Origin: Rhizobium sp.
GTDB taxonomy: Bacteria > Pseudomonadota > Alphaproteobacteria > Rhizobiales > Rhizobiaceae
Length of the DNA: 64,000 nt
Assembly: GCA_019739215.1 (NCBI GenBank)
Contig: JAHHDR010000022.1
Location: 62,001 to 126,000 of the forward strand
Direction of reading: 5' to 3'
Of this stretch, positions 8,073-64,000 are shown one piece after another. A program made the translations under genes and the position numbers. The notes beneath the pieces were generated by a model that worked only from the letters and a program-made list of their open reading frames with translations, was not told the DNA's origin and searched no databases. Each line of letters opens with the position of its first letter. Position 1 is the first letter of the stretch.

Positions 8073-9050
8073 TCAGACGGATGTGACGCCGGGATGTGTG
8101 GCAAGAAAATCTTCCAGCTCGGCGGGGAACGGCATGGCAGGGGCACATCCGGGCTTCGCGACAACGATCGAGGCACAGGCAGAACCTCGAAGGACGGCCT
8201 CCTGAACTGGCCGGCCTTCCCCCAGTGATGCCAGGAAACCAGCGAGAAAGCTGTCGCCTGCACCCGTCGGCTTCAGGGCGACAACGGGAAAGATGCCGGT
8301 GCGCAGTTCACGTCTGTCGGCAAAGGTGATCGAGCCGCCCGGGCCTTGCTTATAGACCACGATTGCGGCGCTGGAGGTGGCCAGTTCGCGTGCTTTGGCC
8401 AGACCTGCCGTGACGTCGCCAGCCATGAAGCCAAACTCTTCATCGTTTCCGACGATCACGTCAGCCATTTCACCGGCGCGCGCGAGGACGTCTTTTGCCA
8501 CCCCTGGAGAGGGCCAGATGTAGGGTCGGTAATCGATGTCGAATACAATCGCTACACCGGCAGCCCGGGCCATTTCGAACGCTCTGAATGCTGCACTTCG
8601 CGACGGTTCGGCGGAGAATACGGTGCCCGTGGTGATCATTGCGCCAAAGGCGGGAAAATCCACGGCTTCGACATCTGCGACAGTCATCTGGAAATCGGCG
8701 GCGTTGTTCCGATATATGACCGACTGGTGCTCATCTTTCCGGGTTTCATAGACGGCAAGAGAGGTCCGCGCTTCACCCTTGATCGCCTTAACATGGCGAC
8801 GGTCGATGTGATAATGATCGAGTTGGTCAAGGCAGTACCATCCGACCGCGTCATCTGACACGGTGGTCAACAATGCGGCGTAGCAGCCAAGTCTGGACAG
8901 GCCGGCTGCGATATTGGCTGAAGACCCTCCCATCGCGACCATCATCGTGGTGGCATCGCGGGTGCGGGTGTTCACCGGGGAAGGGGTCAGGTCCATTCCG
9001 ACCCGCCCGATGACCAGGAATGTCTTACTGGAGATCCGATCAAGCACCAT
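8073..9050 (-). CDS. iolC: 5-dehydro-2-deoxygluconokinase IolC (PfkB family)
   Basis: Ribokinase/PfkB-family kinase, about 325 aa, that phosphorylates 5-dehydro-2-deoxygluconate. Seen: GGSSANIAAGLSRLG near residue 42 (PfkB N-terminal signature region), DIDYRPYIWPS in the middle, and the C-terminal ATP/anion-hole motif PTGAGDSFLAGF with the catalytic Asp. The start ATG overlaps the iolD stop (TGATG), so translation is coupled. The inverted repeat visible in this window begins inside this gene (8653): its 5' part has a mirror copy at 63603-64000. Confidence 0.94.
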   Translation of the reverse strand: MVLDRISSKTFLVIGRVGMDLTPSPVNTRTRDATTMMVAMGGSSANIAAGLSRLGCYAALLTTVSDDAVGWYCLDQLDHYHIDRRHVKAIKGEARTSLAVYETRKDEHQSVIYRNNAADFQMTVADVEAVDFPAFGAMITTGTVFSAEPSRSAAFRAFEMARAAGVAIVFDIDYRPYIWPSPGVAKDVLARAGEMADVIVGNDEEFGFMAGDVTAGLAKARELATSSAAIVVYKQGPGGSITFADRRELRTGIFPVVALKPTGAGDSFLAGFLASLGEGRPVQEAVLRGSACASIVVAKPGCAPAMPFPAELEDFLATHPGVTSV

Positions 9051-10915
9051 CACACGCCCTTACGCTGCAGGTGTCGTGACGCTTCCCAGTCCTGATGCGC
9101 CGCCGTCACTTTGGGATCTTCCGAAACATGAGGCGTGCCGCATTCCCACCAGGTGTGTCCCTCGGTCGTCCATCCGTCAAAGGGATCGACCTTCATGCAT
9201 ATCACGGTGGTTTTGGTGGCCGCTTTGGCGCGTTTGAATGCCGCAGCCAATTCGGAAGCATTGGCCGCTGTCTCGGCGATTGCCCCCTGTGCGCGGGCAT
9301 GGGCCTCGAAATCCACGGTGAAGGGTTCCGGGATCGTCGGGCAGTCCGACAGCAGATTGTTGAAGCTCTGGTTGCCGGTGTTGTTCTGTAGCTTGTTGAT
9401 CACGGCGAAGCCGCCATTGTCCAGCACCAAGATGATCAGCTTCTTCTGGCTGAGAACAGAGGAGTAGATATCGGAATTCATCAACATGAACGATCCGTCG
9501 CCGACAAAGACGATCGTGTCATGGTCCGCGTCACGTTCGGCCTGGGCGATACGGGCCCCCCACGCACCGGAAATCTCGTATCCCATGCAGGAGAAGCCGA
9601 ATTCTATATCCACCGTCCCGGTTTCAAGTGTGCGCCAATTGGCCGTCAGTTCTGCGGGCAAACCGCCAGCCGCGGCGACCACCCGATCGCGCGCGTCACA
9701 GAGTTCGTTCACCACGCCGATGGCCATGGCGTAGGAGTTGGGTCTGTTGCCTGACGCGACGTTCTTGGCGACGTAGGTATCCCAGATTGCGCGATGACGT
9801 TGAGCGGTACCCACCCACTCTCCCGGCGCGGCATAATCCCCCAGTCCGTCGGAAAGTGCGACAAGCGACAGCTTCGCGTCACCCACCACCGGAAGCGACA
9901 AGTGCTTGGCAGCATCATGGCGTGCCGCATTGACCGAGATAAACCTGGCCTCTCTCGAAAACGCGGTCCAGGACCCCGTCGTAAAGTCCTGCAGCCTTGT
10001 CCCGACGGCCAGGATCACATCGGCTTCGGCAGCGATCGCATTGGCTGAATTTGATCCCGTGACGCCGATCGGGCCGATATTCAGCGAGTTTGTTGCGGTC
10101 ATGTTCGCGCGGCCCGCAATAGTCTCCACCACGGGGATCCGATGTGTTTCAGCGAAGGCGGTCAGTTCTGCCACGGCGCGGGAATACTGAACGCCGCCGC
10201 CTGCAATAATCATCGGCCTTGCTGCTGTTTTCAACAGCGCCACGGCATCGGCTATTTCTGCCACGTCCGGATTTTGGCGACGGATTCGGTGTATCTTCTT
10301 TTCAAACCAGACGCTCGGGTAATCATAGACCCATCCCTGAACGTCCTGAGGCAAGCCGATGAATGCGGGGCCACAATCGGCAGGGTCCAGCATGGTGGCA
10401 ACAGCGTTGGGAAGCGACTGAAGTATCTGTGCCGGATGGGTAATCCTGTCCCAGTACCGCACGACCGGTTTGAATGCGTCGTTCAATCCAAAGGTAGGGT
10501 CGCCGAAGTTTTCCATTTGCTGCAAGACGGGATCGGGCAACCGGGTAACGTAGGTGTCGCCGCACAGCAGGAGCACCGGCAGGCGATTGGCGTGTGCCAG
10601 GGCCGCGCTTGTCAACATGTTGGCAGTGCCGGGGCCGGCGCTGGCGGTGCAGAACATGAAGCGCTGGCGAAGCCATTGTTTCGCATAACCCGCCGCGGCA
10701 AAGCCCATGCCCTGTTCATTCTGGCCCCGGTACAGCGGAAGCTGTTCCCTCGCCGCATAAAGTGCCTCACCAAGACATGTCACGTTTCCATGGCCGAAGA
10801 TGCCGAATCCGCCGCCGAACACGCGCATTTCCTCGCCGTCGATTTCAATGAACTGACTGGCGAGGTGACGGATGATGGCCTGCGCTGTCGTCAGGCGAAT
10901 TGTGTTCTGTTTCAT
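9050..10915 (-). CDS. iolD: 3D-(3,5/4)-trihydroxycyclohexane-1,2-dione hydrolase IolD
   Basis: Thiamine-diphosphate enzyme of about 621 aa that opens the ring in myo-inositol catabolism. Seen: N-terminal pyrimidine-binding domain beginning MKQNTIRLTTAQAIIRHLASQ with the catalytic Glu region (PLYRGQNEQGMGFAAAGYAK), central domain with PMIIAGGGVQYS, and the C-terminal ThDP motif GDGSFMLMNSDIYSS. A much longer open frame runs upstream, but ATG 10915 gives the family N-terminus and has AGGAGG ahead of it. It is the first gene of the iolD-iolC-iolB-aldolase operon. The 123-base gap to the divergent dehydrogenase gene holds a LacI-type operator. A mirror copy is at 61738-63603. Confidence 0.95.
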   Translation of the reverse strand: MKQNTIRLTTAQAIIRHLASQFIEIDGEEMRVFGGGFGIFGHGNVTCLGEALYAAREQLPLYRGQNEQGMGFAAAGYAKQWLRQRFMFCTASAGPGTANMLTSAALAHANRLPVLLLCGDTYVTRLPDPVLQQMENFGDPTFGLNDAFKPVVRYWDRITHPAQILQSLPNAVATMLDPADCGPAFIGLPQDVQGWVYDYPSVWFEKKIHRIRRQNPDVAEIADAVALLKTAARPMIIAGGGVQYSRAVAELTAFAETHRIPVVETIAGRANMTATNSLNIGPIGVTGSNSANAIAAEADVILAVGTRLQDFTTGSWTAFSREARFISVNAARHDAAKHLSLPVVGDAKLSLVALSDGLGDYAAPGEWVGTAQRHRAIWDTYVAKNVASGNRPNSYAMAIGVVNELCDARDRVVAAAGGLPAELTANWRTLETGTVDIEFGFSCMGYEISGAWGARIAQAERDADHDTIVFVGDGSFMLMNSDIYSSVLSQKKLIILVLDNGGFAVINKLQNNTGNQSFNNLLSDCPTIPEPFTVDFEAHARAQGAIAETAANASELAAAFKRAKAATKTTVICMKVDPFDGWTTEGHTWWECGTPHVSEDPKVTAAHQDWEASRHLQRKGV

Positions 10916-10998
10916 TTCCGAATAGCCCCTCCTGCCGAACGCGCGAACGGCGGCGCCGCGATTTCGACTTGTAAAATCTCGAAGCGTAGGATACGAAT

Positions 10999-11016
10999 TT
11001 TGCAATCGGTTGCAAA
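10999..11016. promoter_or_regulatory. LacI-type operator, iolD / dehydrogenase divergent gap
   Basis: TTTGCAATCGGTTGCAAA, an 18-base near-perfect palindrome with a CG centre, typical of LacI-family sites. It lies between the divergent starts of iolD (10915) and the Gfo/Idh gene (11039). The same 18 bases occur at 15296-15313 next to the lacI-family gene, so one repressor probably controls both operons. Confidence 0.8.
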
Positions 11017-11038
11017 CAAAAAATCGCCAGAGGTCAAC

Positions 11039-12160
11039 ATGCCGGATATAGGGATTGGGATCGTCGGCGGCGGCTACATGGGCAAAGCCCACGCCGTCGC
11101 GATGCTGGCCGTCGGAGCGGTGTTCAACACGGCCCTGCGTCCCCGTCTCGAAATGGTTTGCGCCACGACTGCAGGCAGTGCTGAACAGTATCGTAAGGCC
11201 TATGGTTTTGCGCGGGCGACTGCCGTCTGGCAGGATCTGGTCGACGATCCGAAGGTCGAAGCCATCGTGATCGCGTCGCCACAAGACACGCATCGTGCAA
11301 TTGCCGAGGCCGCCTTTGCGCTGGGCAAGCCGGTCCTGTGCGAAAAGCCGATGGGCGTCTCGTTCGAGGACAGCCGCGCGATGGTCGCTGCTGCGGAAGC
11401 CAGCGGCTGCGTCAATATGGTGGGGTTCAACTACATTCGCACGCCTGCCAGCCAGCATGCCCGCCAACTGATCGCTTCGGGCGCCATCGGTGACGTGACA
11501 TGGTTTCGCGGTGAGCATACGGAGGACTTTCTGGCCGATCCGCAGGCTCCGGCGACCTGGCGGACGAGCGGCATGGCGAATGGCACCATGGGCGATCTGG
11601 CGCCCCACATGATCAACGCCGCGCTGGCTCTGCTTGGTCCGATCCGAAGTGTTATCGCTGAGGTGGAAACCGTGCACAGGCAGCGGCCCGGGGGAACGGT
11701 CTGCAACGACGACCACGCACAGATGATGTGCCGCTTTGAAAGCGGGGCAATGGGGCAGATGTATTTCAGCCGGATCTCGACAGGTCGCAAAATGGGATAT
11801 GCCTATGAGGTCACCGGAAGCAGGGGTGCGATCCGTTTTGATCAGGAAGACCAGAATGCGATCTGGCTCTATCGTGCCGAGGGCCCGCAGGCCAATCGCG
11901 GATTCACCAAGATTTTGACGGGGCCGGAGCATCCGGACTACCTGCCGTTCTGCCAGGGAGCAGGGCATGGCACCGGATATCAGGACCAGATCATCATTGA
12001 GGCCAAGGATTTTCTGGAAGCCATTCATCGCGGCGAGGCATCGTGGCCGACCTTTCGGGACGGCATGCTGGTCAATCAGATTGTTGCCGCTGCGCTGGCG
12101 TCATCGATGAAAAAGGCATGGCAGGACGTAACGGCATTCCAGGCATCCGGAAGGTTTTGA
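11039..12160 (+). CDS. Gfo/Idh/MocA family NAD(P)-dependent dehydrogenase
   Basis: Oxidoreductase of about 373 aa. Seen: Rossmann motif GIVGGGYMGKAH at the N-terminus, AIVIASPQDTH, and CEKPMG near residue 101 with the catalytic-site Lys typical of the family; the C-terminal alpha/beta domain contains NMVGFNYIRTP and FRGEHTEDF. ATG 11039 is chosen because the Rossmann fold starts there and AGAGG precedes it; an open frame continues about 300 codons upstream but is antisense to iolD. Members next to iol genes oxidise myo- or scyllo-inositol, or inosamine in the case of MocA; which one applies here is not determined. First gene of a three-gene operon divergent from iolD. Confidence 0.9.
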   Translation: MPDIGIGIVGGGYMGKAHAVAMLAVGAVFNTALRPRLEMVCATTAGSAEQYRKAYGFARATAVWQDLVDDPKVEAIVIASPQDTHRAIAEAAFALGKPVLCEKPMGVSFEDSRAMVAAAEASGCVNMVGFNYIRTPASQHARQLIASGAIGDVTWFRGEHTEDFLADPQAPATWRTSGMANGTMGDLAPHMINAALALLGPIRSVIAEVETVHRQRPGGTVCNDDHAQMMCRFESGAMGQMYFSRISTGRKMGYAYEVTGSRGAIRFDQEDQNAIWLYRAEGPQANRGFTKILTGPEHPDYLPFCQGAGHGTGYQDQIIIEAKDFLEAIHRGEASWPTFRDGMLVNQIVAAALASSMKKAWQDVTAFQASGRF

Positions 12161-12161
12161 A

Positions 12162-13052
12162 ATGAGTATTCGCATCGGCAACGCGCCCTGCTCCTGGGGA
12201 ATAGAATTCCCGAGCGATCCGTCCTATCCACGCTGGCAAACCGTTCTGGATCAATGCGCTGCGGCTGGTTACAGGGGAATCGAACTAGGCCCCATCGGCT
12301 ATATGCCTGAAGATCCTTCTATCCTCGCGCCCGAACTTGCCTTGCGGGATCTGGCCATTATCGGCGGTGTCGTCTTCCAGCCGCTCCATGATCCGGCGAA
12401 ATGGGACGAGGTCATGGATGCCTCTGTTCGCACATGCAAGGCGCTGGTCGCACATGGGGCGCGGCATCTGGTTCTGATCGACAGCATTTCGCCGCGCCGC
12501 GCGCCGACGGCTGGGCGCGCACAGGAAGCCGAGCAGATGGACAAAGCCGAGTGGGACGCCTTTCGCGACCGAATCGCGACCATCGCCAAAATGGCAACCG
12601 AAGACTATGGCCTGACCGCAGGCATCCATGCCCATGCGGCAGGCTTTATCGACTTCGAACCTGAGCTTGAGCGATTGCTTGAAGAGGTGGACGAGAACAT
12701 CCTCAAGATATGTTTTGACACCGGGCATCATTACTATGCGGGTTTTGATCCCGTGGCCTTCATGGACCGGCATATGGATCGAATTTCCTATATGCATTTC
12801 AAGGATATAGACCCGAAGGTGAAGGCTCGGGTCGTCGCCAATCGGACCGGCTTCTACAAAGCCTGCGGGGAGGGAATTTTCTGCAATCTCGGCAAGGGCG
12901 ATGTCAATTTTCCCGCCGTTCGGCAACGCTTGCTAGATGCCGAATTTGATGGCTGGTGCACGGTCGAACAGGATTGCGACCCGTCATTGCCAGGAACACC
13001 GTTCGAGGATGCGCGCGCCAACCGCGAATACCTGCAATCCATTGGCTTCTAA
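12162..13052 (+). CDS. TIM-barrel sugar isomerase/dehydratase, IolE/MocC-like
   Basis: AP-endonuclease-family-2 TIM barrel, 296 aa. Seen: RIGNAPCSWGIEF at the N-terminus, GYRGIELGPIGYMP (conserved Glu), IHAHAAGF (His), ICFDTGHHYY (Asp and His metal ligands) and MHFKDID. The family includes inosose dehydratase IolE, inosose isomerase IolI and the rhizopine protein MocC; the opening segment looks closest to the IolE/MocC side. It begins one base after the preceding dehydrogenase stop and is followed by a second Gfo/Idh/MocA gene, the same pairing as in moc-type clusters. An IolE-like step (scyllo-inosose to the diketone hydrolysed by IolD) would complete the route with the divergent iolD operon. 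Confidence 0.85.
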   Translation: MSIRIGNAPCSWGIEFPSDPSYPRWQTVLDQCAAAGYRGIELGPIGYMPEDPSILAPELALRDLAIIGGVVFQPLHDPAKWDEVMDASVRTCKALVAHGARHLVLIDSISPRRAPTAGRAQEAEQMDKAEWDAFRDRIATIAKMATEDYGLTAGIHAHAAGFIDFEPELERLLEEVDENILKICFDTGHHYYAGFDPVAFMDRHMDRISYMHFKDIDPKVKARVVANRTGFYKACGEGIFCNLGKGDVNFPAVRQRLLDAEFDGWCTVEQDCDPSLPGTPFEDARANREYLQSIGF

Positions 13053-13064
13053 GGGTCTTACGCA

Positions 13065-14198
13065 ATGAAAAAACTGAAGTGGGGCATGATCGGTGGTGGC
13101 GAGGGCAGCCAGATCGGCCCGGCGCATCGTCTGGGCGCACTGGCGGATGGGCATTTCGAGTTTGCCGCCGGCGCCCTCGATCATCGGTCCGACGTGGGAC
13201 GAGACTATGCCTTGAGGCTGGGGATCGCTGCTGAGCGGGCATATGGTGACTGGACAGAGATGCTCGCCGGCGAAAAGGGGCGGGCGGATCGAATTGACCT
13301 CGTTACCGTGGCGACGCCGAACGCCACACATTTCGAGATTACCAAGGCCTTTCTCGAGGCTGGATTCAATGTGTTGTGCGAAAAGCCGATGACCATGACA
13401 GTGGAAGAGGGCGAAGAGATCGTTCGCGTCGCCAAGTCCGCTGGCAAGATCTGTGCTGTGAACTATTGTTACTCCGCATACCCGATGGTGCGGCAGGCCC
13501 GCGCGATGGTGCGTGCCGGGGAGATCGGCAGGATCCGCGTGGTGGTGACAAATTTCAGTCATGGCCACCATGGAGATGCCGCCAATGCGGACAATCCGCG
13601 CGTGCGCTGGCGCTATGACGCTGCTGTTGCGGGCGTGTCGGGGCAGTTTGCCGATTGCGGCATTCATGCGCTGCATATGGCCAGCTTTATCTGCAACGAC
13701 GACGTCGAGAAATTGTCTGCCGACTTTGCGTCGACGATCGGGAGTCGAGCATTGGAAGATGATGCGATGGTGAACTTCCGAATGGCAGGCGGCACCGTGG
13801 GGCGTCTTTGGACGTCGTCGGTTGCGATTGGCCGGCAGCATGGGTTTGACATCCAGGTCTTTGGCGAAACTGGCGGACTTCGGTGGGCGTCGGAACAGCC
13901 GAACCAACTGATGTTTACCCCTGTCAACGGACGGACCCAGATCATTGAGAAGGGCGAGAGCGACCTGCACGAGGATGCGCAGCGCCTGTCGCGGGTTGCC
14001 ATTGCCCATCCGGAAGGATTTCCCCTGGCGGTCGCAAACATCTATTGCGACTTTGCCGATGCGATACGGGGCGAGGTACGTGACGGTTTGCCTACGGCTG
14101 AAAGCGGCCTTCGATCGATGGCAGCGGTTTATGCCGCGGTGGCCTCTGCACGGGCAGAGGGCGCGTGGGTTGAGGCGCGGCCACCGATGTTCCGTTAG
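13065..14198 (+). CDS. Gfo/Idh/MocA family oxidoreductase (second copy in cluster)
   Basis: Dehydrogenase of 377 aa. Seen: MIGGGEGSQIGPAH, a longer glycine-rich loop than in the first dehydrogenase, TVATPNATHFE, CEKPMTMTVEEGEEI, and GQFADCGIHALHM in the C-terminal domain. It is clearly different from the gene at 11039, so the two are not a recent tandem duplication. Twelve bases separate it from the IolE/MocC-like gene. It ends in a four-base tail-to-tail overlap with the lacI-family gene. Likely substrate: an inositol stereoisomer or derivative; not assignable from sequence. Confidence 0.9.
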   Translation: MKKLKWGMIGGGEGSQIGPAHRLGALADGHFEFAAGALDHRSDVGRDYALRLGIAAERAYGDWTEMLAGEKGRADRIDLVTVATPNATHFEITKAFLEAGFNVLCEKPMTMTVEEGEEIVRVAKSAGKICAVNYCYSAYPMVRQARAMVRAGEIGRIRVVVTNFSHGHHGDAANADNPRVRWRYDAAVAGVSGQFADCGIHALHMASFICNDDVEKLSADFASTIGSRALEDDAMVNFRMAGGTVGRLWTSSVAIGRQHGFDIQVFGETGGLRWASEQPNQLMFTPVNGRTQIIEKGESDLHEDAQRLSRVAIAHPEGFPLAVANIYCDFADAIRGEVRDGLPTAESGLRSMAAVYAAVASARAEGAWVEARPPMFR

Positions 14199-15217
14199 TC
14201 GTCCGACGCCGCCTGCACTTCTTTCAAGGGGCGTAGCGTTCCGCGCTCAACAATGTGGCACGCAAAGATGCGTGCTTCCGGCAAGCGTACCGGATCGCGA
14301 AGCATCGCCGTGATCAGTTCGATCGACGAGTTGACGATCTGCCGGATCGGCTGGCGGATTGTGGTCAGATTGATGTTGTTCCAGCCGGCGATCTCCATAT
14401 CGTTCAATCCAAGGATACCGATGTCGCGTGGAACGGAAAGCTGCTGGTCCTGTATAGCCGACAGTGCGCCGATCGACAGCACATCGTCGCCGCAGAAATA
14501 GGCCTCGGCCGGTTCGCCGTCCAGGAGGTCCTGCATTTCGGCTCGACCTGCCTCGAAGGAATAGGCTGTGGCAAATGATTGGCTGACGCTGACTTGGGGA
14601 TGAAGGCTGAGTTCCTGCAAAAATCCCTTCAATCGATCCTGCGTTGAAGTGGCAATCTCCGGTCCACCCATGAACCCAAGCCGCCGATAGCCCCGTGCCG
14701 TCAGGGTCTGTGCCGCCAATCGTCCGGCGTCGATGTTGTCTATGCCCACGACATGCACCTCCGGCGCGCTCGTCACGCGACCGAATGCGTGGACAACCGG
14801 GACGCCCGCGTCGCGGAATGCCTTTCCGAAAGCTGGCGGCAGAGTGGATGACGCTACGACAACGCCGTCCACGGAATATTGGCGAAGCATGCGCACGGAG
14901 TTTGCAGGATCGGTTTCGTCGGTCAGGTTGACAAGCAGCGGGCGCAATCCCTGGTCCTGTAGCGCGCGTGTGAAAAGATCGAAGACCTCAAGGAAGATCG
15001 GATTGTGAAAATTATTAGAGACCAAGCCGATGAGCTTCGTTCGGCCAGTCGTCAGGCTGGAAGCGAGAACGTTGGGGCTGAAACCAAGTTCTGAGGCCGC
15101 CTTCTCCACGCGCTTGCGCATCTTTGCCGAGACGGAGGCGCCATCGGTAAACGCACGCGAGACTGCAGAACGGGATACTCCCGCCCGTTCGGCCACGTCT
15201 TTCAAGGTCGGCGTCAT
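14195..15217 (-). CDS. LacI family transcriptional regulator of the inositol-type cluster
   Basis: DNA-binding repressor of 340 aa. N-terminal helix-turn-helix TLKDVAERAGVSRSAVSRAF, then hinge region GFSPNVLASSL, then a periplasmic-binding-protein-like sensor domain (LIGLVSNNFHNPIFLEV to GILGLNDMEIAGWNNI). It is divergent from the binding-protein gene at 15402; the gap contains an operator palindrome identical to the one upstream of iolD. Inference: it represses both operons and itself, and is released by an inositol-related ligand. Confidence 0.93.
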   Translation of the reverse strand: MTPTLKDVAERAGVSRSAVSRAFTDGASVSAKMRKRVEKAASELGFSPNVLASSLTTGRTKLIGLVSNNFHNPIFLEVFDLFTRALQDQGLRPLLVNLTDETDPANSVRMLRQYSVDGVVVASSTLPPAFGKAFRDAGVPVVHAFGRVTSAPEVHVVGIDNIDAGRLAAQTLTARGYRRLGFMGGPEIATSTQDRLKGFLQELSLHPQVSVSQSFATAYSFEAGRAEMQDLLDGEPAEAYFCGDDVLSIGALSAIQDQQLSVPRDIGILGLNDMEIAGWNNINLTTIRQPIRQIVNSSIELITAMLRDPVRLPEARIFACHIVERGTLRPLKEVQAASDD

Positions 15218-15276
15218 GGCCAGTGTCTCCAGTCTGTCGTCGTTACCTTATAGCGCGACATCCAGCACTGAATATA

Positions 15277-15292
15277 GGTCAGTGAATTGACC
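15277..15292. promoter_or_regulatory. Second palindrome beside the LacI operator
   Basis: GGTCA-gtgaat-TGACC, a 16-base inverted repeat three bases before the LacI-type operator at 15296. It could be an extra regulator half-site pair or part of the promoter geometry. Sequence pattern only; no factor is assigned. Confidence 0.35.
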
Positions 15293-15295
15293 AGT

Positions 15296-15313
15296 TTTGC
15301 AATCGGTTGCAAA
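15296..15313. promoter_or_regulatory. LacI-type operator, lacI / binding-protein divergent gap
   Basis: TTTGCAATCGGTTGCAAA, base-for-base the same as 10999-11016. It sits 79 bases before the lacI start and 89 bases before the binding-protein start, so it can control the importer operon and autoregulate lacI. Confidence 0.8.
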
Positions 15314-15401
15314 ATTTTATCCGGTGTGCTCTAGTGTCTATGAGAGTTGGAGGAGACTGGCTCTCGGCAACACGCAGTTTTTTCGTTGGGAGAGAGAAAC
15401 A

Positions 15402-16349
15402 ATGTCTTTTATCAAGAACTTTGCTGTGGGTGCGGCGGCTGTCCTTGCGCCGCTCCTTGCGGCAACGCCCGCGTTGGCAGACGGTGAACGCTATGTCCTT
15501 GTCAGCCACGCACCTGACAGCGACAGTTGGTGGAACACGGTCAAGAACGGTATCAAGCTGGCTGGCGAGCAGATGGGCGTGACCGTCGAGTACCGAAATC
15601 CGCCAACTGGTGACATTGCCGACATGGCGCGGATCATTGATCAGGCCGCGGCTTCAAATCCGGATGGAATCATCACCACGCTTGCTGACTTCGACGTGCT
15701 GAAAGGGCCGATCAAGAAAGCCGTGGATCAGGGTATCGACGTTATCATCATGAACACCGGGACGCCCGAACAGGCCCGGGAAGTCGGTGCGCTGATGTAT
15801 GTCGGCCAGCCGGAATATGACGCAGGCCTCGCCGCCGGCATGCGTGCAAAGGCCGATGGGGTGACATCCTTCCTCTGTGTCAATCACGCCATACAGCAGC
15901 CGACAGTCGCCGAGCGCTGCCGCGGCTTTGCCGTTGGGTTGGGCGTCGACCTGGGCGGATCCATGCTCGACAGCGGCACGGACCCAGCCGAGATCAAGAA
16001 CAAGGTTCTGGCCTATCTCTCGGCGCATCCTGATACAAACGGCATCCTGACGCTTGGCCCGGTATCGGCAGATCCGACCATCGCGGCGTTGAAGGAGAAT
16101 GGCATGGCGGGCCAGATCTATTTTGGAACGTTCGATCTTGGCGAGGAAATCGTCAAGGCGATCAAGGGCGACATCATCCGCTGGGGCATCGACCAGCAAC
16201 CGTTCCTGCAAGCCTACATGCCGGTTGTCATCCTGACCAACTACGATCGCTATGGTGTGCTGCCCGGCAACAACATCAACTCGGGTCCCGGCTTCGTGAC
16301 CAAGGACGGGTTGGAAAAGGTTGAGAAATTTGCGGGCGAGTACCGCTGA
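15402..16349 (+). CDS. Sugar/inositol-type ABC transporter substrate-binding protein
   Basis: Periplasmic binding protein of about 315 aa, RbsB/IbpA/MocB type. Sec signal peptide MSFIKNFAVGAAAVLAPLLA ending ALA-DG. Mature part: YVLVSHAPDSDSWWNTVKNG, PDGIITTLADFDVLKGPIKKA, GVTSFLCVNHAIQQPTVAERC. ATG 15402 has GGAGAGAG before it; an in-frame codon at 15297 lies inside the operator and is rejected. Operon context (LacI operator upstream, permease and ATPase downstream, iol/moc-like genes next door) suggests an inositol, inosamine or glycosylated inositol ligand. Confidence 0.92.
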   Translation: MSFIKNFAVGAAAVLAPLLAATPALADGERYVLVSHAPDSDSWWNTVKNGIKLAGEQMGVTVEYRNPPTGDIADMARIIDQAAASNPDGIITTLADFDVLKGPIKKAVDQGIDVIIMNTGTPEQAREVGALMYVGQPEYDAGLAAGMRAKADGVTSFLCVNHAIQQPTVAERCRGFAVGLGVDLGGSMLDSGTDPAEIKNKVLAYLSAHPDTNGILTLGPVSADPTIAALKENGMAGQIYFGTFDLGEEIVKAIKGDIIRWGIDQQPFLQAYMPVVILTNYDRYGVLPGNNINSGPGFVTKDGLEKVEKFAGEYR

Positions 16350-16359
16350 TTTCCGGGAA

Positions 16360-16391
16360 ACAGGGCGGCCGATGAAGATCGGCCGCCCTGT
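16360..16391 (+). terminator. Intercistronic hairpin after binding-protein gene
   Basis: Perfect 14-base stem (ACAGGGCGGCCGAT at 16360-16373 pairing with 16378-16391) with GAAG loop, 10 bases after the stop codon. There is only a weak T-rich tail. Between a binding-protein and a permease gene such hairpins usually act as partial terminators or 3' stabilisers that raise binding-protein mRNA over the rest of the operon. Confidence 0.75.
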
Positions 16392-16426
16392 TGTCACATT
16401 TTCGGCTGCAATTCCAGGGGGACTAG

Positions 16427-17548
16427 ATGTCCGGGACACCAGCACTTCGCCATAGCGATGAGCGCGTCAAGTCAAGATCGAGGTTCAGGGAAGCGTTGAT
16501 CATTCCGGAACTTGGCGGAATATGCGGAACGGTGCTGGTGTTCACCTTCTTCCTGCTGACAGCCCATGATTCCGGCATGTTCAATGCCGCGGGCGTTCTG
16601 AACTGGTCGGTCGTGTCGGCACAGTTCATGATCATCGCCGTCGGAGCCTGCCTGCTGATGATCGCCGGTGAATTTGACCTGTCGGTCGGCTCGATGATCG
16701 GCTTTGCGGGGATGATGATCGCTATTTTCAGCGTCAATATGGGCTGGCCGATGTGGATCGCCATTCTGGTGACCTTTGTCATGTGTCTCGCGATTGGCGC
16801 GCTCAACGGTTGGATATGCGTGAGGACTGGTTTGCCGAGCTTCATCGTGACCCTGGCATCGCTGTTCGTCTTGCGCGGATTTACAATATTCCTGCCCCAG
16901 ACCCTTGAGAACAAAACCATTATTGGAGGTATCCGTGAAGCAGCCGAGGGCGACTGGCTGGCCCCGGTGTTTGGCGGAAAGATCCTGACGGGTCTGTTTC
17001 AATGGTTTGGCGAAATAGGCCTGATTGCGACATTCGACCGGGGCGTGAACAAGGGATTGCCCGTGGTGGATGGCATACCGATGCTGATAGTGTGGGCGCT
17101 GGCTCTCATCGCATTTGGCCATGTGCTTCTGACGAGAACGAGATTTGGCAACTGGATCTTCGCTGCGGGGGGAGACGCGGAATCGGCCAGGTACTCTGGA
17201 GTACCCGTGGGCCGCGTGAAGATCTTGATGTTCATGTTCACCGCATTTTGCGCGACTGTATTCGCGACATGTCAGGTCATCGAGTTCGGATCGGCAGGGG
17301 CGGATCGCGGCCTGCTCAAGGAGTTCGAGGCGATCATTGCCGTGGTGATTGGTGGTGCCTTGCTGACAGGGGGCTATGGGTCGGTGCTGGGCGCGGCGCT
17401 CGGCGCGTTGATTTTCGGTGTCGTCCAGCAGGGCCTCTTCTTTGCCGGCGTGGAGAGTTCGCTCTTCCGGGTGTTTCTGGGGGTGATTCTGCTCTTCGCT
17501 GTGGTCCTGAACACCTACATCCGCCGCATCATCACCGGGGAGAAGTGA
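16427..17548 (+). CDS. Sugar/inositol-type ABC transporter permease
   Basis: Inner-membrane permease of 373 aa (BPD_transp_2). Seen: basic N-terminus, then multiple hydrophobic helices; [17 protein letters not shown] (family signature near residue 85), and the cytoplasmic loop [25 protein letters not shown] slightly longer periplasmic insertion is present between about 165 and 215. It follows the binding-protein gene after a hairpin and is one base before the ATPase gene. Confidence 0.92.
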
Positions 17549-17549
17549 A

Positions 17550-18338
17550 ATGGACGTGCAAACCGCGCCCCTCATTCGGATGAAGGACATCGAAAAACAC
17601 TTCGGTTCAGTGATCGCGCTGGCGGGCGTGTCCGTGGATCTCTTTTCCGGAGAGTGCCATTGCCTGCTGGGCGACAATGGCGCCGGAAAATCGACGTTCA
17701 TCAAGACAATGTCGGGCGTCTATAAGCCAACCAAGGGCGAAATCATGTTCGAAGGGCGGCCGATGCGTTTCGCAGATCCGCGCGATGCCATCGCCGCCGG
17801 CATTGCCACGGTGCATCAGCATCTGGCGATGATCCCGCTGATGTCTGTCAGCCGCAACTTCTTTATGGGCAATGAACCGCTTCGCAAAATCGGACCCATG
17901 AAATTTTTCGACCATGACTTCGCCAACAGGGTGACCATGGAGGAAATGCGAAAAATGGGTATCAACCTGCGTGGGCCGGATCAGGCGGTGGGCACGCTTT
18001 CAGGCGGTGAGCGTCAAACAGTGGCGATTGCCCGTGCCGTCTATTTCGGCGCCAAGGTTCTGATTTTGGATGAACCGACCTCTGCACTCGGCGTGCGGCA
18101 AACGGCGAATGTGCTTTCGACGATCGACAAAGTCCGCAAACAAGGAATCGGTGTCGTCTTTATCACCCATAATGTCCGACATGCCATGGCAGTAGGTGAC
18201 AGGTTCACAGTGTTAAACCGTGGAAAGACGATGGGGACGGCGCTACGCGGTGAAATTGCCGCGGAAGAGCTGCAGGACCTGATGGCTGGTGGGCAGGAAC
18301 TGGTCGAACTGGAAGGCAGCTTGGGCGGTACAGTATAG
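17550..18338 (+). CDS. Sugar/inositol-type ABC transporter ATPase, single domain
   Basis: ATPase of 262 aa with one ABC domain: Walker A GDNGAGKS (41-48), signature LSGGERQ (150-156), Walker [11 protein letters not shown] (171-180), switch His in FITHNV. Related importers often use a double-domain RbsA-type ATPase; this single-domain form would work as a homodimer, as in FrcA-like systems. The stop codon lies only three bases before the IS remnant at 18342, so the element may have trimmed or ended the transcript here. Confidence 0.92.
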
Positions 18339-18341
18339 CAG

Positions 18342-18929
18342 GGCTTGTCGCAAAGTCGGGTTCGGCCGGCAGTAGGTGCCCCTCATCGACTGCCGCCTTG
18401 ATCGTTTAGGGGAAGGTGTTGGCACCGTCGGTGCCGATCTTCCATGGCGAGAGCAGCGGCTCGTCCTTGAGCATCGAAAGAATCGCTTAGCGGCATCAAG
18501 GTCGCGTCCTGCTGTGAGCAGGGAGTCGATCGGGTTCCCGTGCTTGTCGATGGCTCGGCTCGGTACAGATAGCGCCACTAGCCGCGGATCTTAACGTAGT
18601 CTCGTCAATCCGGATTGAGCCCGAATGCGGTCGGCGGAACTGGCGTAGCCGCTTCTCGATGACAGGTGCATAGGCGAGAACCCGGCGATTGATCGTGCTG
18701 TGATCGACCTCAAAGCCGCACTCGCAGAACATCTCCTCCAGATCTCGATAGCTGAGCGGATAGCGCAGATACCAGGTTACCGCCTGCACGATGAGCTATG
18801 CCTGGAAATGCCGCCCCTTGAAATCATCCGTCGACTGGCGCATCAGCTTTTCGGCAATGGCACTCAGAATCATGGGCCCGCTCCGAAGCATTGGGAGCGG
18901 AATTTTCTCCATGCTTGGTCAACAGAGCC
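18342..18929 (-). mobile_element. IS6-family insertion sequence remnant
   Basis: 588 bases bounded by imperfect inverted ends: GGCTTGTCGCAAAG at 18342 and, on the other strand from 18929, GGCTCTGTTGACCA, both resembling the GGCTCTGTTGCAAA end of IS6/IS26-type elements. On the minus strand it encodes pieces of an IS6 transposase: DDFKGRHFQA then a stop, then WYLRYPLSYRDLEEMFCE, VDHSTINRRVLAYAPVIEKR, RIDETT, and in a shifted frame RAIDKHGNPIDSLLTAGR and DLDAAKRFF. The 3' half, with the last catalytic residues, is missing. No 8-base target duplication is seen. It separates the inositol-type cluster from the polyamine-type cluster. Confidence 0.88.
18360..18877 (-). pseudogene. IS6-family transposase, broken
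   Basis: Transposase reading frame with at least one in-frame stop near its start (after DFKGRHFQA), a frameshift or deletion after RIDETT (just past the first catalytic Asp), and loss of the C-terminal part. Intact IS6 transposases are about 230-240 aa; here only scattered segments totalling perhaps 150 codons can be recognised. It is not expected to be active. Confidence 0.85.
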
Positions 18930-18934
18930 CCTTG

Positions 18935-20203
18935 TCAGCGCAAGAGACCGATTATGGCTTCGGCGGCGCGAGTGGCGCCGGCGAATCCCTGCATCTTGAT
19001 GGCGTTCACGCTGAGGCGAGCCTTCATGACGTCATTGTCCAGAAGCGCCCGGATCATTCCAGCCAGTTGGTCCGGTGGCCAGTCATAGCGGTGAAGCATG
19101 TGCCCGACGCCCGTTTCGGCTGCTCGCCGCGCGTTGTCGTGGCCATCCCAGCAATAGGGCATCACAAGGGACGGCACCCCGAAATAGAGGGCTTCGCAAA
19201 AGCTGTTGTTGCCGCCGTGATGGATGAAGAGACTGGCTTGCGACACGACGGAGGGTTGCGGGAACCAGCTGTCGAGGAAAATATTGTCCGGCACCTGAAC
19301 ATATTCATCGCGCCAGTGGCCGACATTGATCAGGAAGCGATAGGGCAAAGTGGAGAAGACCTCCATCATTCGCCTGAGCAGTTCGACATCCATGGCGCCA
19401 AGTGACCCGAAGCTGGTCAGGATGAGGGCAGAATCGTTGTGGCTGGCAAAGCGTGGCGGTTGGTACGGCGTTTCCCGACGCACGCATCCATCCAGGAACA
19501 GGAAACGCTGCGGGTCGAGCGGTTTGGCGCGGTGATGGCGAATGATCTCAGGGGCCAGGATCAGATTGAGATAGGGTGAGGAATCCAGGAAGAGGGGCGG
19601 TGCGGGTGGCTTCAATCCGCAGTCGAGCATGAAGGCTGACAGGCGCCTGTGCGCCGTTGCCGTCGTTTTCTCGTACCGCGCCGAAAACTCCGCCCACTCT
19701 TCGCTGGTCGCTTGACCTAGGCCCGACAGGTAGGGCGGTACGAGCGGATCAGGGATCTCGGTTTCAGCACAAGAGACCACCCTGATCCAGGGGACCCCGG
19801 CCGTCGCGACCGCGGGGAACATCACAACGTTGTCCAGAACGATAGCATCCGGTTTCAGTCGTGCCAACAACTGACGCAAGGGCTCCTCGACCCCGATCGC
19901 GGTCTCCACGATGGCCTCCCAGGTCGGGCCTACATAGGATGTCAGTTGTTCCCGGGCTGTCTGGCGGAAAGCATCCTGATGACGACTGATGAACTCGTTC
20001 CAATCCGTGGCCTGACCCGGTTCGATGTCGCCCAATTGGTATTCCGCAAAGCCGTATTCCGCAAAGACGCCGCTGAAACCCGGATGGCAGATGAAGACGG
20101 GTCTGGCGCCCAGCCTGCGCAGTTCCTGCGCAATACCGACGCAGTTGAGAGCCGCGCCGTAGCTCGCTTCCGGAAAGAGCGCAATCGTCTTTTGTGCTGA
20201 CAT
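18935..20203 (-). CDS. UGT/MGT-like glycosyltransferase (first of two)
   Basis: Family-1-like (GT-B) glycosyltransferase of about 422 aa. Seen: N-terminal KTIALFPEASYGAALNCVGIAQEL, a strand-loop-helix typical of the acceptor domain; DAIVLDNVVMFPA; LILTSFGSLGAMD at the start of the donor domain; and the donor-site block IHHGGNNS (about 327-334) followed by PYCWDGHDNARRA, which is the PSPG-like motif of UGT/MGT enzymes. ATG 20203 is chosen by alignment with the paralogue at 25316. It lies 17 bases after the GntR gene and ends five bases from the IS remnant. Acceptor and sugar donor are unknown. Confidence 0.88.
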   Translation of the reverse strand: MSAQKTIALFPEASYGAALNCVGIAQELRRLGARPVFICHPGFSGVFAEYGFAEYQLGDIEPGQATDWNEFISRHQDAFRQTAREQLTSYVGPTWEAIVETAIGVEEPLRQLLARLKPDAIVLDNVVMFPAVATAGVPWIRVVSCAETEIPDPLVPPYLSGLGQATSEEWAEFSARYEKTTATAHRRLSAFMLDCGLKPPAPPLFLDSSPYLNLILAPEIIRHHRAKPLDPQRFLFLDGCVRRETPYQPPRFASHNDSALILTSFGSLGAMDVELLRRMMEVFSTLPYRFLINVGHWRDEYVQVPDNIFLDSWFPQPSVVSQASLFIHHGGNNSFCEALYFGVPSLVMPYCWDGHDNARRAAETGVGHMLHRYDWPPDQLAGMIRALLDNDVMKARLSVNAIKMQGFAGATRAAEAIIGLLR

Positions 20204-20220
20204 GGAGTTCTTTGGCTGAT

Positions 20221-21153
20221 TTACCGCGATATGACCTGGAGTGCGGGCGGAACGCCGCGTCCCACTAGGCGCGGCCTCTGGGACTGCGAAAGTTGTATAT
20301 GCACACGCATCAGATCCGCAGCAAGCTCCATCAAGCCACGCTCGATCTGCTCCAGTATCTGGATGTGTTCCAGATTGGACTGCATCAGCCGATAGGTGTT
20401 CACATGGGCTGCCGCGCTGTTGGAGCGCCGGCGGCGGTGATGGCTCGCCAGGGCTTCCGCCATGAAGGGGTTGCCGCATCCTCGTGCCACCAGCATGTGA
20501 ATGTCAAAGTCGGTGCGCTCGAAGAGCCTGCGATCGAAATCAGCCTCGCTCATGCTGCGAAGGATCAACATGGATTGCCTGAGCGACGTCAGGGCCGGCA
20601 TATCGCGACGAAAATCGGGCAGCGTCAGCGCAAGGGGTTCGGTTGCAAGGCGAAACTCATAGGATTTGGCAATCGCATCGGCTCCCAATGCAAACTGCTT
20701 CAAGAGCCATTGCTGCCCGGCACCCCGCTCAGCAAGATTGTCCTCCGAGAGTTTTTGTAGCGCGTTCTGTACCGCCTGGCGGGACACATCGTAACGTCTC
20801 TGCAGGGCGGCAACCGTTTGAGCTTCGCCGATTCGTCCTGCGGCGAGGTCCCTCAGGATTGCCGAGGAGACCTCTGAATCTCCATCCTTCTCGTCCGGAT
20901 CGTCAAGGCGCGCCACCGTCATAGGATCGATGGCCAGAACAAAACCTCCGTCCGCATCGGCTTCGACCAGATCACGTTCTGCAAGCACGTGCAGCGCCTT
21001 TCGCACCGGTGTCCGGGAAACATTGCAATGCGAGGCGAGCGTCTGTTCTGCCAGCCGCTCTCCAGGGGACATCCCTCGTTCACTGGCATAATCCAGTATT
21101 TTTTGCGCCAATTCCACATGGCGGTAGCGTATGCGCCCGGGCTCTGTCGACAT
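20221..21153 (-). CDS. GntR-family regulator with two winged-helix segments
   Basis: Transcriptional regulator of 310 aa. The N-terminal GntR winged helix contains HCNVSRTPVRKALHVLAERDLVE (about residues 42-64). A second HTH-like segment, YDVSRQAVQNALQKLSEDNLAE, occurs near 125-146, which is unusual for a simple FadR/FCD regulator. The C-terminal part is helical with FERTDFDIHMLVARGCGNPFMAEAL and resembles an FCD ligand domain. It is divergent from the polyamine-type importer (210-base gap) and co-transcribed with the downstream glycosyltransferase. Likely the local regulator of both. Confidence 0.88.
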   Translation of the reverse strand: MSTEPGRIRYRHVELAQKILDYASERGMSPGERLAEQTLASHCNVSRTPVRKALHVLAERDLVEADADGGFVLAIDPMTVARLDDPDEKDGDSEVSSAILRDLAAGRIGEAQTVAALQRRYDVSRQAVQNALQKLSEDNLAERGAGQQWLLKQFALGADAIAKSYEFRLATEPLALTLPDFRRDMPALTSLRQSMLILRSMSEADFDRRLFERTDFDIHMLVARGCGNPFMAEALASHHRRRRSNSAAAHVNTYRLMQSNLEHIQILEQIERGLMELAADLMRVHIQLSQSQRPRLVGRGVPPALQVISR

Positions 21154-21261
21154 GGATCACCTGCTGTCTATCGGCTGCATGCTGGCTTCTTAATGGCCGA
21201 TTGGCAAGCGGGAACGTTCCGCTTTTCACTTGAATCAAGAAAATTCAAAGGGTCTATTGAC

Positions 21262-21283
21262 GTATTATTTTTTCAATTAATAC
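21262..21283. promoter_or_regulatory. Palindrome in GntR / importer divergent gap
   Basis: GTATTA-10 bases-TAATAC in an AT-rich stretch between the divergent GntR gene and importer operon. It is a candidate operator for the GntR regulator, or promoter DNA of one of the two operons. The call rests on symmetry and position alone. Confidence 0.4.
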
Positions 21284-21363
21284 TGCATGCCAGTGGCGAC
21301 ATGAGATCGGGTCACCGACGCCTCGCCTGCGAGTGGGAACAATTATCAAACGAGGAGAGAACC

Positions 21364-22434
21364 GTGAGAACACGAAGCGGATACGCCATACTAGGTGTTT
21401 GTGCATGCAAGCTGCTCGCCGCGACGATGCTCGCAGGCAGCGTGAGCGCGGCCAATGCGGCTGATCTCGTCATCTCGAACTGGGATGGCTACATGGCAAA
21501 GGACATCGCTGAGACCTTCAAGGCCGCCACCGGCCTGGAGATCGAAGTGGTCAACCACGCCACCAACGAAGAAATCATGGGCAAGCTGATGGCGAGCCAG
21601 GGCAAGGGCTATGACCTTGTTTTCGTGTCTTCTCCTTTTGCCGAAGTCCTCAACCACCAGAACCTCGTGGAGCCGCTCGACAAGGCGGCGATCCCGAATC
21701 TCGCCAACCTCTATCCCGAGGCGGCAAGCCTCGCCTATGACCCGGGCAATGCCTACTCCGTACCCTATACCTGGGGTACGACCGGTCTCTGCTATCGCTC
21801 CGATCTGGTCAAGACCACGCCCGACAGCTGGATGAACCTGCTTGCCCCCTCCGATGACATCAAGGGCAAGACCACCATGCTGGCGACCGACCGCTGGTTG
21901 ATGGCGGCGGGCGCACTGGCCAAGGGCTATTCGGTCAACGAAACCGACCCGGCAAAGGTCGCCGAGGTCAAGGATCTGCTGATCGCGGCCAAGAAGACGC
22001 TTCTCGCCTATGATGATACGACCTTCTATTCGAAGCTCGTCTCCGGCGAGGCCTCGCTCGTGCATGCATGGGACGGCTGGTGCAACTATGGCATCACCGA
22101 GAACAAGGACATCAAGTTCGTTGTGCCGAAAGAAGGCTCCGACCTCTGGGTCGACACCATCGTCGTCATGAAGAATTCGGAGAAGAAGGATGCCGCGATG
22201 AAGTTCATCAACTTCATCCTCGATCCCGCAAATCATGCCTGGGCGGCCCAGAACATCCTCTACAAGGTGCCGAACAAGGCGGCGATGGAAAGCCTCGGCG
22301 CGTCGCTGATCGAGCAATATCCGAACATGGGCATGACACCGGCGGAACTGACAAAGTTCGAATTGCTGCGTGATCTCGGTGCTTCCCAGAAGGACTATTC
22401 TCGCGCCGTCAGCGAGATCAAGGCCGCCAACTGA
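21364..22434 (+). CDS. Polyamine-type ABC transporter substrate-binding protein
   Basis: Periplasmic binding protein of the PotD/PotF type, about 356 aa. GTG start 21364 with GAGGAGAG ahead. Signal peptide: basic MRTRSGY then AILGVCACKLLAATMLAGSV, cleaved near ANA-AD. Mature start DLVISNWDGYMAKDIAETF has the WDGY/W-x-Y pattern of this family, followed by GYDLVFVSSPFAEVL and SVPYTWGTTGLCYRSDL. An open frame continues upstream to 20989 but overlaps the divergent GntR gene and is not used. The ligand may be a polyamine or another small cation; the neighbouring enzymes do not settle it. Confidence 0.92.
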   Translation: MRTRSGYAILGVCACKLLAATMLAGSVSAANAADLVISNWDGYMAKDIAETFKAATGLEIEVVNHATNEEIMGKLMASQGKGYDLVFVSSPFAEVLNHQNLVEPLDKAAIPNLANLYPEAASLAYDPGNAYSVPYTWGTTGLCYRSDLVKTTPDSWMNLLAPSDDIKGKTTMLATDRWLMAAGALAKGYSVNETDPAKVAEVKDLLIAAKKTLLAYDDTTFYSKLVSGEASLVHAWDGWCNYGITENKDIKFVVPKEGSDLWVDTIVVMKNSEKKDAAMKFINFILDPANHAWAAQNILYKVPNKAAMESLGASLIEQYPNMGMTPAELTKFELLRDLGASQKDYSRAVSEIKAAN

Positions 22435-22472
22435 GCCGATCCCCGGCAACCGAAATGGGCTGCCTGCACTGC

Positions 22473-22500
22473 ATCGAGGGAGACATTCGTCTCCTTCGAT
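22473..22500 (+). terminator. Intercistronic hairpin after binding-protein gene
   Basis: 12-base stem (ATCGAGGGAGAC at 22473-22484 with 22489-22500, one G-T wobble) and ATTC loop, 38 bases after the binding-protein stop and about 70 bases before the first permease start. Probably a partial terminator or mRNA stabiliser giving excess binding protein. Confidence 0.7.
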
Positions 22501-22567
22501 CGCCCCTCGGGATTTCCCCAGTCCTTCGACGACATCCCCTGCCACGTCATCGCCCTGGAACGCCCGC

Positions 22568-23455
22568 ATGTCCTATCAATCTGCCCGATTGAACCTGCTT
22601 GCCGCGCCGGCTGTCGCCTGGCTCGTGGCATTCATGGTCGTGCCATGCCTGCTCATACTCTCCTATGCCTTCTTTGAACGCGGCATCTGGGGTGGCATCG
22701 AATACACGCTGACACTCGAGAACTTCGCCCGCGTCATCGATCCTCTCTACGCCAATATCTTTCTGACGTCGGCGCGCATCGCCGGTCTTGCCACGCTGCT
22801 GGCGATCCTGATCGCCTATCCGGCGGCCTATGCGATCAGCCGTGCGCCAAAGATACGCCAGCCCATGCTGCTGTTCTTTGCCGTTCTGCCCTTCTGGAGC
22901 AATTACCTGATCCGCACCTATGCCTGGGTGGTGCTTCTCAACAGGGAAGGGCTTATCAACAACGTCTTGCGCTGGTTCGGCTATCAGGGCGAGCCGCTGT
23001 CTCTTCTTTACACGGAGGGCGCGGTGATCGTCGGTCTTGTCTACAACTATCTGCCCTTCGTCATCCTGGCGATCTACTCATCTCTTTCGCGGCTCAATCC
23101 GGAACTGATGGAGGCCTCCCGTGACCTCGGCGGCGGCCCGGTCCGTACTTTCTGGCGTGTCATACTGCCGCTCACCCTGCCCGGGGTCGCAGCCGGCGGT
23201 GTCTTTGTCTTCGTCCTGTCGATCGGCAATTTCGTCACGCCGGCCCTGCTTGGAGGCGGGCGGTTCCAGATGATCGGCAATGTCGTCTATGACCAGTTCC
23301 TGAGCGCGAATGACTGGCCGTTTGGTGCTGCACTCGGCCTCGTGCTGATTGCGATAATGATCCTCCTCCTTATGCTGCAGGGGCGGGCAACGGCGCGTGC
23401 AAGTGGTGAAAGAGCGATCGAAAATGCAGGTCCACAGGCGAGGGCAGCGGCATGA
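22568..23455 (+). CDS. Polyamine-type ABC transporter permease 1 (PotB/PotH-like)
   Basis: Inner-membrane permease of 295 aa. Seen: LLAAPAVAWLVAFMVVPCLLILSYAFF as first helix, NYLIRTYAWVVLLNREGLIN (PotB/PotH hallmark), and the EAA loop EASRDLGGGPVRTFWRVILP for contact with the ATPase. ATG 22568 begins the family N-terminus; an in-frame extension to 22370 overlaps the binding-protein gene. It overlaps the next permease by four bases. Confidence 0.92.
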   Translation: MSYQSARLNLLAAPAVAWLVAFMVVPCLLILSYAFFERGIWGGIEYTLTLENFARVIDPLYANIFLTSARIAGLATLLAILIAYPAAYAISRAPKIRQPMLLFFAVLPFWSNYLIRTYAWVVLLNREGLINNVLRWFGYQGEPLSLLYTEGAVIVGLVYNYLPFVILAIYSSLSRLNPELMEASRDLGGGPVRTFWRVILPLTLPGVAAGGVFVFVLSIGNFVTPALLGGGRFQMIGNVVYDQFLSANDWPFGAALGLVLIAIMILLLMLQGRATARASGERAIENAGPQARAAA

Positions 23456-24240
23456 CGATCGCCCATACCTCGCGCCTTTCGGGACGGCTTGTCCTGCTTG
23501 CCGTCTTTGGTTTTCTCTACCTGCCGATCGTGGTCCTTGTTTGCCTGTCCTTCAACGAGGCGGGCCTGCCGACAAGCTGGTCCGGCTTTTCGTTCAAGTG
23601 GTATGCGGCGCTAGCCGGCAATGGCGAGATCCTAGGCGCCGCCTGGAACACGCTGATCGTTGCCGTCTTTGCCACGGCGATTGCCACGGCGCTCGGAACC
23701 CTGCTGGCGCTCGGCATGGAAACCCGTCGCCGCAAGAGTGCAGGGCTTGAGGCGCTCGCCTTTGCACCGATGGTCATTCCCGATATCGTTCTGGCGGTCG
23801 CACTTCTAACCTTCTTCTCGTTGCTCAACGTCACGCTGGGACTGCACACGATCATCATCAGCCATGTCATCTTCGACCTGGCCTTCGTATGCTCCGTGGT
23901 CAGGGCGCGGCTCAAGTATTTCGACTATTCCATTGTCGAGGCTTCGCGTGATCTGGGCGCCTCCGCCTGGACGACTTTCTGGCGTGTTACGTTCCCGGTT
24001 CTCATGCCGGCAATCGTCGCGGGTGCCTTGCTCGCCTTCACGCTCTCGATCGACGAGTTCATCATCGCCTTCTTCACGGCCGGCGCCGGTCGTTCCTCGA
24101 TCACGTTGCCGATCCAGATCTATTCGATGATTCGCTTTGGCATCACGCCGGAAATCAACGCCCTTGCCACCATCGTCATGGGGGTCAGTGCTGCCGCGCT
24201 GCTGATCTCGCAACGGCTCAACAAAGAACAGATGCAATGA
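23452..24240 (+). CDS. Polyamine-type ABC transporter permease 2 (PotC/PotI-like)
   Basis: Inner-membrane permease of 262 aa. Seen: FNEAGLPTSWSGFSFKWY after helix 1, as in PotC/PotI; EALAFAPMVIPDIVLAVALL; EAA loop EASRDLGASAWTTFWRVTFP; and FTLSIDEFIIAFF near the C-terminus. ATGA overlaps at both ends tie it to the upstream permease and the downstream ATPase. Confidence 0.92.
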   Translation: MTIAHTSRLSGRLVLLAVFGFLYLPIVVLVCLSFNEAGLPTSWSGFSFKWYAALAGNGEILGAAWNTLIVAVFATAIATALGTLLALGMETRRRKSAGLEALAFAPMVIPDIVLAVALLTFFSLLNVTLGLHTIIISHVIFDLAFVCSVVRARLKYFDYSIVEASRDLGASAWTTFWRVTFPVLMPAIVAGALLAFTLSIDEFIIAFFTAGAGRSSITLPIQIYSMIRFGITPEINALATIVMGVSAAALLISQRLNKEQMQ

Positions 24241-25298: not shown

Positions 25299-25315
25299 GA
25301 ACAAAGGGAAGCCCC

Positions 25316-26966: not shown

Positions 26967-26992
26967 TCCGGCCCCTCGAAAGGACTATCGCC

Positions 26993-27340: not shown

Positions 27341-27417
27341 CCGATGACGCGGCCGTACAAAAGGCATGCGCCAGATGCGCCGTCCCATTCCACAATCGAC
27401 CTTGCAGGCAGGATGCC

Positions 27418-30167: not shown

Positions 30168-30173
30168 GGTCTC

Positions 30174-60491: not shown

Positions 60492-60492
60492 T

Positions 60493-63603: not shown

Positions 63604-64000
63604 TGGTGCTTGATCGGATCTCCAGTAAGACATTCCTGGTCATCGGGCGGGTCGGAATGGACCTGACCCCTTCCCCGGTGAACACCCGCACCCGCGATGC
63701 CACCACGATGATGGTCGCGATGGGAGGGTCTTCAGCCAATATCGCAGCCGGCCTGTCCAGACTTGGCTGCTACGCCGCATTGTTGACCACCGTGTCAGAT
63801 GACGCGGTCGGATGGTACTGCCTTGACCAACTCGATCATTATCACATCGACCGTCGCCATGTTAAGGCGATCAAGGGTGAAGCGCGGACCTCTCTTGCCG
63901 TCTATGAAACCCGGAAAGATGAGCACCAGTCGGTCATATATCGGAACAACGCCGCCGATTTCCAGATGACTGTCGCAGATGTCGAAGCCGTGGATTTTCC
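63603..64000 (+). CDS. iolC: 5-dehydro-2-deoxygluconokinase IolC, 5' part (right copy)
   Basis: Mirror of 8653-9050; the gene runs off the window. Start overlaps the iolD stop (TGATG). The visible part carries the N-terminal PfkB region GGSSANIAAGLSRLG. Confidence 0.92.
   Translation, partial: MVLDRISSKTFLVIGRVGMDLTPSPVNTRTRDATTMMVAMGGSSANIAAGLSRLGCYAALLTTVSDDAVGWYCLDQLDHYHIDRRHVKAIKGEARTSLAVYETRKDEHQSVIYRNNAADFQMTVADVEAVDF

Follow-up and report, generated by a model that had tools for sequence, protein, structure and literature searches.

A 32.6-kb palindrome at the end of a rhizobial contig is almost certainly a fold-back chimera, with similar fold-backs at a third of the contig ends of the same assembly

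The palindrome that fills most of the analysed window (the whole stretch of 64,000 bp, C22:62001-126000, of the 130,939-bp contig C22) is almost certainly a fold-back (inverted) chimera, an artefact at an assembled contig end and not a part of the chromosome. The verdict was derived from the comparison of assembled sequences. A preliminary description of the window had already favoured a fold-back join at a contig end as the most likely origin, and this was supported by three results: the arm reaches the contig terminus, fold-backs were found at 31 of the 94 contig ends of the assembly, and likely continuations of the interrupted gene order lie on other contigs.

Structure of the palindrome

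The left arm at window positions 8653-36320 (27,668 bp, forward strand) and the right arm at 36332-64000 (27,669 bp, reverse strand) align over their entire length as reverse complements, without mismatches and with one gap. They are separated by a loop of 11 bases at 36321-36331, read from the sequence as ACCTATTCGGC. An exact match of such length is far beyond chance. The sole difference between the arms is a one-base homopolymer indel, namely a run of three T in the left arm (about 35526-35528, forward strand) and of four in the right arm (about 37124-37127, A on the forward strand). The outer limits 8653 and 64000 are set by the window borders only. The identity continues from the centre to the contig end, and the true arm measures 32,608 bp from window position 3714 to the last base of C22; the mirror copy of the outer left stretch (3714-8652, forward strand) lies outside the window at C22:126001-130939. 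The palindrome with its 11-base centre was hence borne out as first described, the arm of at least 27.7 kb proved to be longer, and position 64000 is followed by further right arm up to the contig terminus. The right arm differs at only one place in 32.6 kb and thus is not the noise of a raw single read, although a consensus after polishing would have this appearance too.

The open reading frames are mirrored with few exceptions. With a minimum length of 60 aa, the left arm has 153 ORFs and the right arm 154, of which 151 form exact mirror pairs, and the unpaired ones (two and three, respectively) are all located around the one-base indel. The two ORFs crossing the centre are unequal with 276 and 209 aa. 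The initial statement that all ORFs are mirrored at the same length holds for the 151 pairs and fails for the exceptions near the indel and for the centre-crossing pair.

The left arm, which is taken as genuine chromosome, carries transporter, sugar, acyl-CoA and other metabolic genes, and its inner end is collinear with a locus of Rhizobium alvei TNR-22 (L157). In a Pfam scan, 20 hand-picked ORFs out of 103 listed (window 441-34106) belonged to transport, metabolic and glycosyltransferase families. The gene content around the palindrome is ordinary.

Two of the reading frames are unusually composed. An ORF of 842 aa at 1545-4070 contains two ABC ATPase stretches and a permease in one frame, and an ORF of 992 aa at 9053-12028, a TPP enzyme, has about 400 residues ahead of its first matched domain. 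Genuine fusions, ORF calls that are too long and consensus errors are all possible causes. Between 35125 and 36115, the matches to the R. alvei CoA-transferase are broken into pieces in differing frames in both arms, which, besides the one-base difference between the arms, suggests consensus indels.

The left end of C22 was found to be a fold-back as well. Contig positions 1-15999 and 16028-32048 are about 99.7% identical in inverse orientation with a spacer of 28 bases, and the unit between the two centres of C22 comprises 82.3 kb. In this pair, 41 of the 47 differing alignment positions fall into one noisy patch of about 390 bp (contig 8407-8794, outside the window) that looks like unpolished read sequence or a thinly covered long-read consensus.

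Fold-backs at other contig ends

The assembly comprises 5.96 Mb in 47 contigs and is listed as 84.63% complete and 5.44% contaminated. Inverted repeats were searched in C22 and in the outer 20 kb at both ends of the other 46 contigs (whole contigs if shorter). Of these 92 ends, 27 were found to fold back, in addition to the two of C22. The search was extended by the next 20 kb, to 40 kb, at 41 of the 65 negative ends and yielded two more, at the right ends of C18 and C41. In total, at least 31 of 94 contig ends fold back; they are distributed over 24 of the 47 contigs, seven of which are affected at both ends. The number is a lower bound, as centres deeper than the stretch read are missed and the scan covered C22 and the ends of the other 46 contigs. 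At the remaining 63 ends, no fold-back was present in the 20 or 40 kb read.

The centres are located 5-33 kb from the contig end. Fifteen of the 31 arms could be traced to their end, and all fifteen reach the contig terminus with no unique flanking DNA at the arm end. The other 16 run up to the border of the stretch read (C18 left after only about 1 kb), and none stops inside. The spacers, which were determined at 29 of the 31 centres, range from 1 to 718 bases with a median of 33, and six of the 29 are only 1-3 bases long. The same k-mer test detected no fold-back in 962,251 bases from 62 loci outside this genome, although these are mostly internal stretches and a weak control for contig ends.

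A common adapter or hairpin oligonucleotide was considered as a cause and dropped, as the 29 spacers were nearly all different by eye with the exception of one pair. This pair, at C14:13282-13307 (L215) and C42:13685-13710 (L216), has a common 26-base core composed of GCTTGCGGCC, a 6-base loop and GGCCGCAAGC, while the outer arms differ. The exact pattern of the core occurs nowhere else among nine genomes of the genus, and the core is perhaps a natural hairpin that favours folding back.

Further peculiarities were noted at single contig ends. The fold-back at the right end of C18 (L183, L070) is complex and composed of multiple pieces with a lower arm identity of 97-99%. The arm of C41, when searched in the genus, gave two inverted copies in the genome under study (G000) and, in each relative, one main set of collinear pieces. 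C11 and C12 start with 6,686 identical bases in inverse orientation (1-6686 in both); C11 seems to extend C12 with an overlap left unmerged.

Interrupted genes and likely continuations on other contigs

Both centres of C22 lie in genes. The frame that runs into the right centre encodes the C-terminal part of a family III CoA-transferase (window 35700-36320, forward strand; PF02515, E 1.2e-40) and reaches the centre without a stop codon. Residue 207 of the matched stretch is the last in the arm, and the frame then goes on for about 70 residues through the loop and the antisense strand to position 36530. In 13 relatives whose C-termini were read, from 59 loci found, the corresponding stretch ends after 205-218 residues, and therefore the CoA-transferase gene breaks off only a few codons away from where its stop would be expected. 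The left centre is situated inside the gene of an N-formylglutamate amidohydrolase (FGase; PF05013, E 5e-44) of the relative G004, and C22 resumes within this gene.

The sequence missing at the left centre is probably continued on C16. The C16 arm leading to the right fold-back of that contig is collinear with G004, G002 and G005, chosen from nine relatives searched, up to positions 17082, 16105 and 15604 of the respective loci, and C22 picks up at 17864, 16918 and 16430. The breakpoints agree in all three relatives and imply a chromosome that is continuous but for a gap of about 0.8 kb, on whose two sides the fold-backs face each other. Shortly before its centre, C16 contains approximately 4 kb without a match in G004, G002 and G005, an apparent insertion.

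Beyond the right centre, the likely continuation is C13, as judged from gene order in one relative. In R. alvei TNR-22, several genes come after the CoA-transferase gene, and three of these match the right end of C13 with 75-95% protein identity; the terminus of C13 falls within one of them. In the nucleotide alignment to L157, the match of C22 ends at position 8575 and that of C13 begins at 13102, which leaves a gap of about 4.4 kb. A similar operon was observed at the left end of C12 with five genes in the same order as in L157, two of them in the gap. It was taken as a paralogue; its identity is 44-70% for the three genes that are also present on C13.

Proposed mechanism

A fold-back of this kind would arise when a copied DNA strand loses its template and its 3' end is primed anew, through a few complementary bases, at a site several tens of bases further back in the same strand or in a sister strand. 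The re-primed 3' end would then be extended backwards. Following reads across the junction, the assembler would pass from the true arm to the reverse complement of that arm and go on as far as the data reach. Given an artefact, the setting was probably phi29 multiple displacement amplification (MDA) of a single cell or of very low input, followed by long-read sequencing. In an MDA of a single E. coli cell, 85% of the chimeras were inverted (406 of 475), the joined points of 337 inverted ones lay less than 10 kb apart, and 2-21 complementary bases had served for priming at 76.8% of the chimeric junctions (PMC1855051). After MDA, 26-38% of nanopore reads were palindromic and the assembly was impaired (PMC13265396). 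The junctions analysed here likewise join inverted segments at close distance (mostly under 10 kb in MDA chimeras), as is evident from the 29 spacers determined, of at most 718 bases.

Short complementarity was seen at one junction, the right centre of C16, where an undisturbed relative can be aligned through the loop. The 34-base loop matches the undisturbed G004 sequence at every base and has six mismatches each in G002 and G005. It is followed by GCGGCA in all three relatives and by CGGCAG in the fold-back; the complement of CGGCA, TGCCG, is present in the arm. This comparison suggests that a 3' end reading about CGGCA paired with TGCCG approximately 35 bases back and was then extended. At the centre of the palindrome in the window, the relatives diverge too far for a comparison of the loop, and the left loop of C22 gave no clear alignment to relatives; we infer re-priming at the window's own centre, as we do the amplification step and the read technology. 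Spacers of 1-3 bases (6/29) are too short for a simple hairpin turn, which would point to sister-strand priming or to an origin in the sequencing library.

Such a library origin is a possible but less likely variant of the artefact. Fold-back reads of a nanopore library, either ligation products or unsplit template-complement reads, would in this case have been carried to the contig ends without any amplification. The literature gives 0.55-0.6% fold-back reads among ONT genomic reads (PMC12870357), 1-4% and up to 20-30% in some cases in another study quoted there, and 0.18-7.33% inverted repeats in ligation libraries (PMC13141652). The very small spacers at six of 29 centres would fit such reads. 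A third of all contig ends, however, seems many for reads whose breakpoints would be expected to vary from read to read, and re-priming by a polymerase accounts better for the long loops (up to 718 bases) and for the few complementary bases at the centre of C16, although the polymerases of end repair could also do so in principle. The library route was still given a substantial minor share, and MDA was rated as probable and not higher, because rates of up to 20-30% for some unamplified data are cited in PMC12870357.

Hairpin-ended replicon and true duplication

Linear replicons with hairpin ends are known from the linear chromosome of Agrobacterium, from N15 and from Borrelia, and a read-through of their ends would give fold-backs at both of them. 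The Rhizobiaceae include Agrobacterium with its hairpin-ended linear chromosome. C22 could accordingly be regarded as a linear replicon of 82.3 kb with covalently closed hairpin ends, both of which were read around, since both contig ends fold back and one unit of this size lies between the centres. This explanation, one of two alternatives named in the preliminary description, led after the second fold-back of C22 had been found and was dropped in view of 27 further fold-backs elsewhere and the continuations; it is now considered highly improbable. Altogether, 29 other contig ends also fold back, with different centres. The ends of a hairpin replicon should spare genes, but both centres of C22 break ordinary gene frames. 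Such a replicon should also end at the centres with nothing beyond, but the chromosome of the relatives passes both of them, as seen with C16 in three relatives and with C13 in one. The 20 hand-picked ORFs of the window belonged to metabolic, transport and glycosyltransferase families. The telomere-resolvase family PF16684 had no match in the genome, a weak negative at a completeness of 84.6%; only one of 14 control genomes, Synechococcus elongatus, was matched with the model, which is unchecked against TelA of Agrobacterium. There is next to no likelihood that C22 is an 82-kb hairpin-ended linear molecule of a bacterium that appears to belong to the Rhizobiaceae, perhaps one of many from a fragmented genome.

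Near-identical arms would equally be expected from a recent duplication, but a true inverted duplication of chromosomal DNA is scarcely credible, and so is an inverted dimer that replicates: unique DNA is expected at the outer arm ends and the right arm meets none before the contig end, as is the case in all 15 traceable arms, the 2.3 kb next to the centre are single copy in G007 (the closest relative for that stretch), and palindromes this large with an 11-base centre are unstable in bacteria.

Consequences for the genome entry

If all 31 arms reach the contig termini as seen for 15 of them, about 390 kb or 6.6% of the 5.96 Mb would be mirrored duplicate. The listed contamination of 5.44% is near this value, and part of it may stem from the fold-backs. 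Gene counts, copy numbers, synteny and centre-crossing ORFs taken from this genome entry would be wrong. The alignment of each contig end with its own reverse complement offers a quick detection of such ends.

Comparison with known systems

A literature search on palindromic contigs in a long-read or metagenome context gave no match. In contrast to the hairpin replicons of Agrobacterium, N15 and Borrelia, the ends of C22 break gene frames, the chromosome goes on elsewhere and no match to the resolvase family was obtained. The nanopore fold-back reads described with Breakinator (PMC12870357) resemble the fold-backs in their near-perfect forward/reverse join with or without intervening sequence. 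They account for about 0.6% of ONT genomic reads, whereas one in three contig ends of a single assembly is concerned here. The palindromic reads from MDA and nanopore sequencing (PMC13265396) are similar in that pervasive palindromes upset long-read assembly, although that study deals with tardigrade mitogenomes and not with a bacterial draft genome. As reported by Lasken and Stockwell (2007, PMC1855051), MDA chimeras share with the fold-backs the inverted, closely joined points, the many independent junctions per sample and the priming at few complementary bases, the latter seen here at the centre of C16. They differ in that they were single reads, while the fold-backs of the present genome, for which we infer an amplification, are ends of assembled contigs with centres 5-33 kb in.
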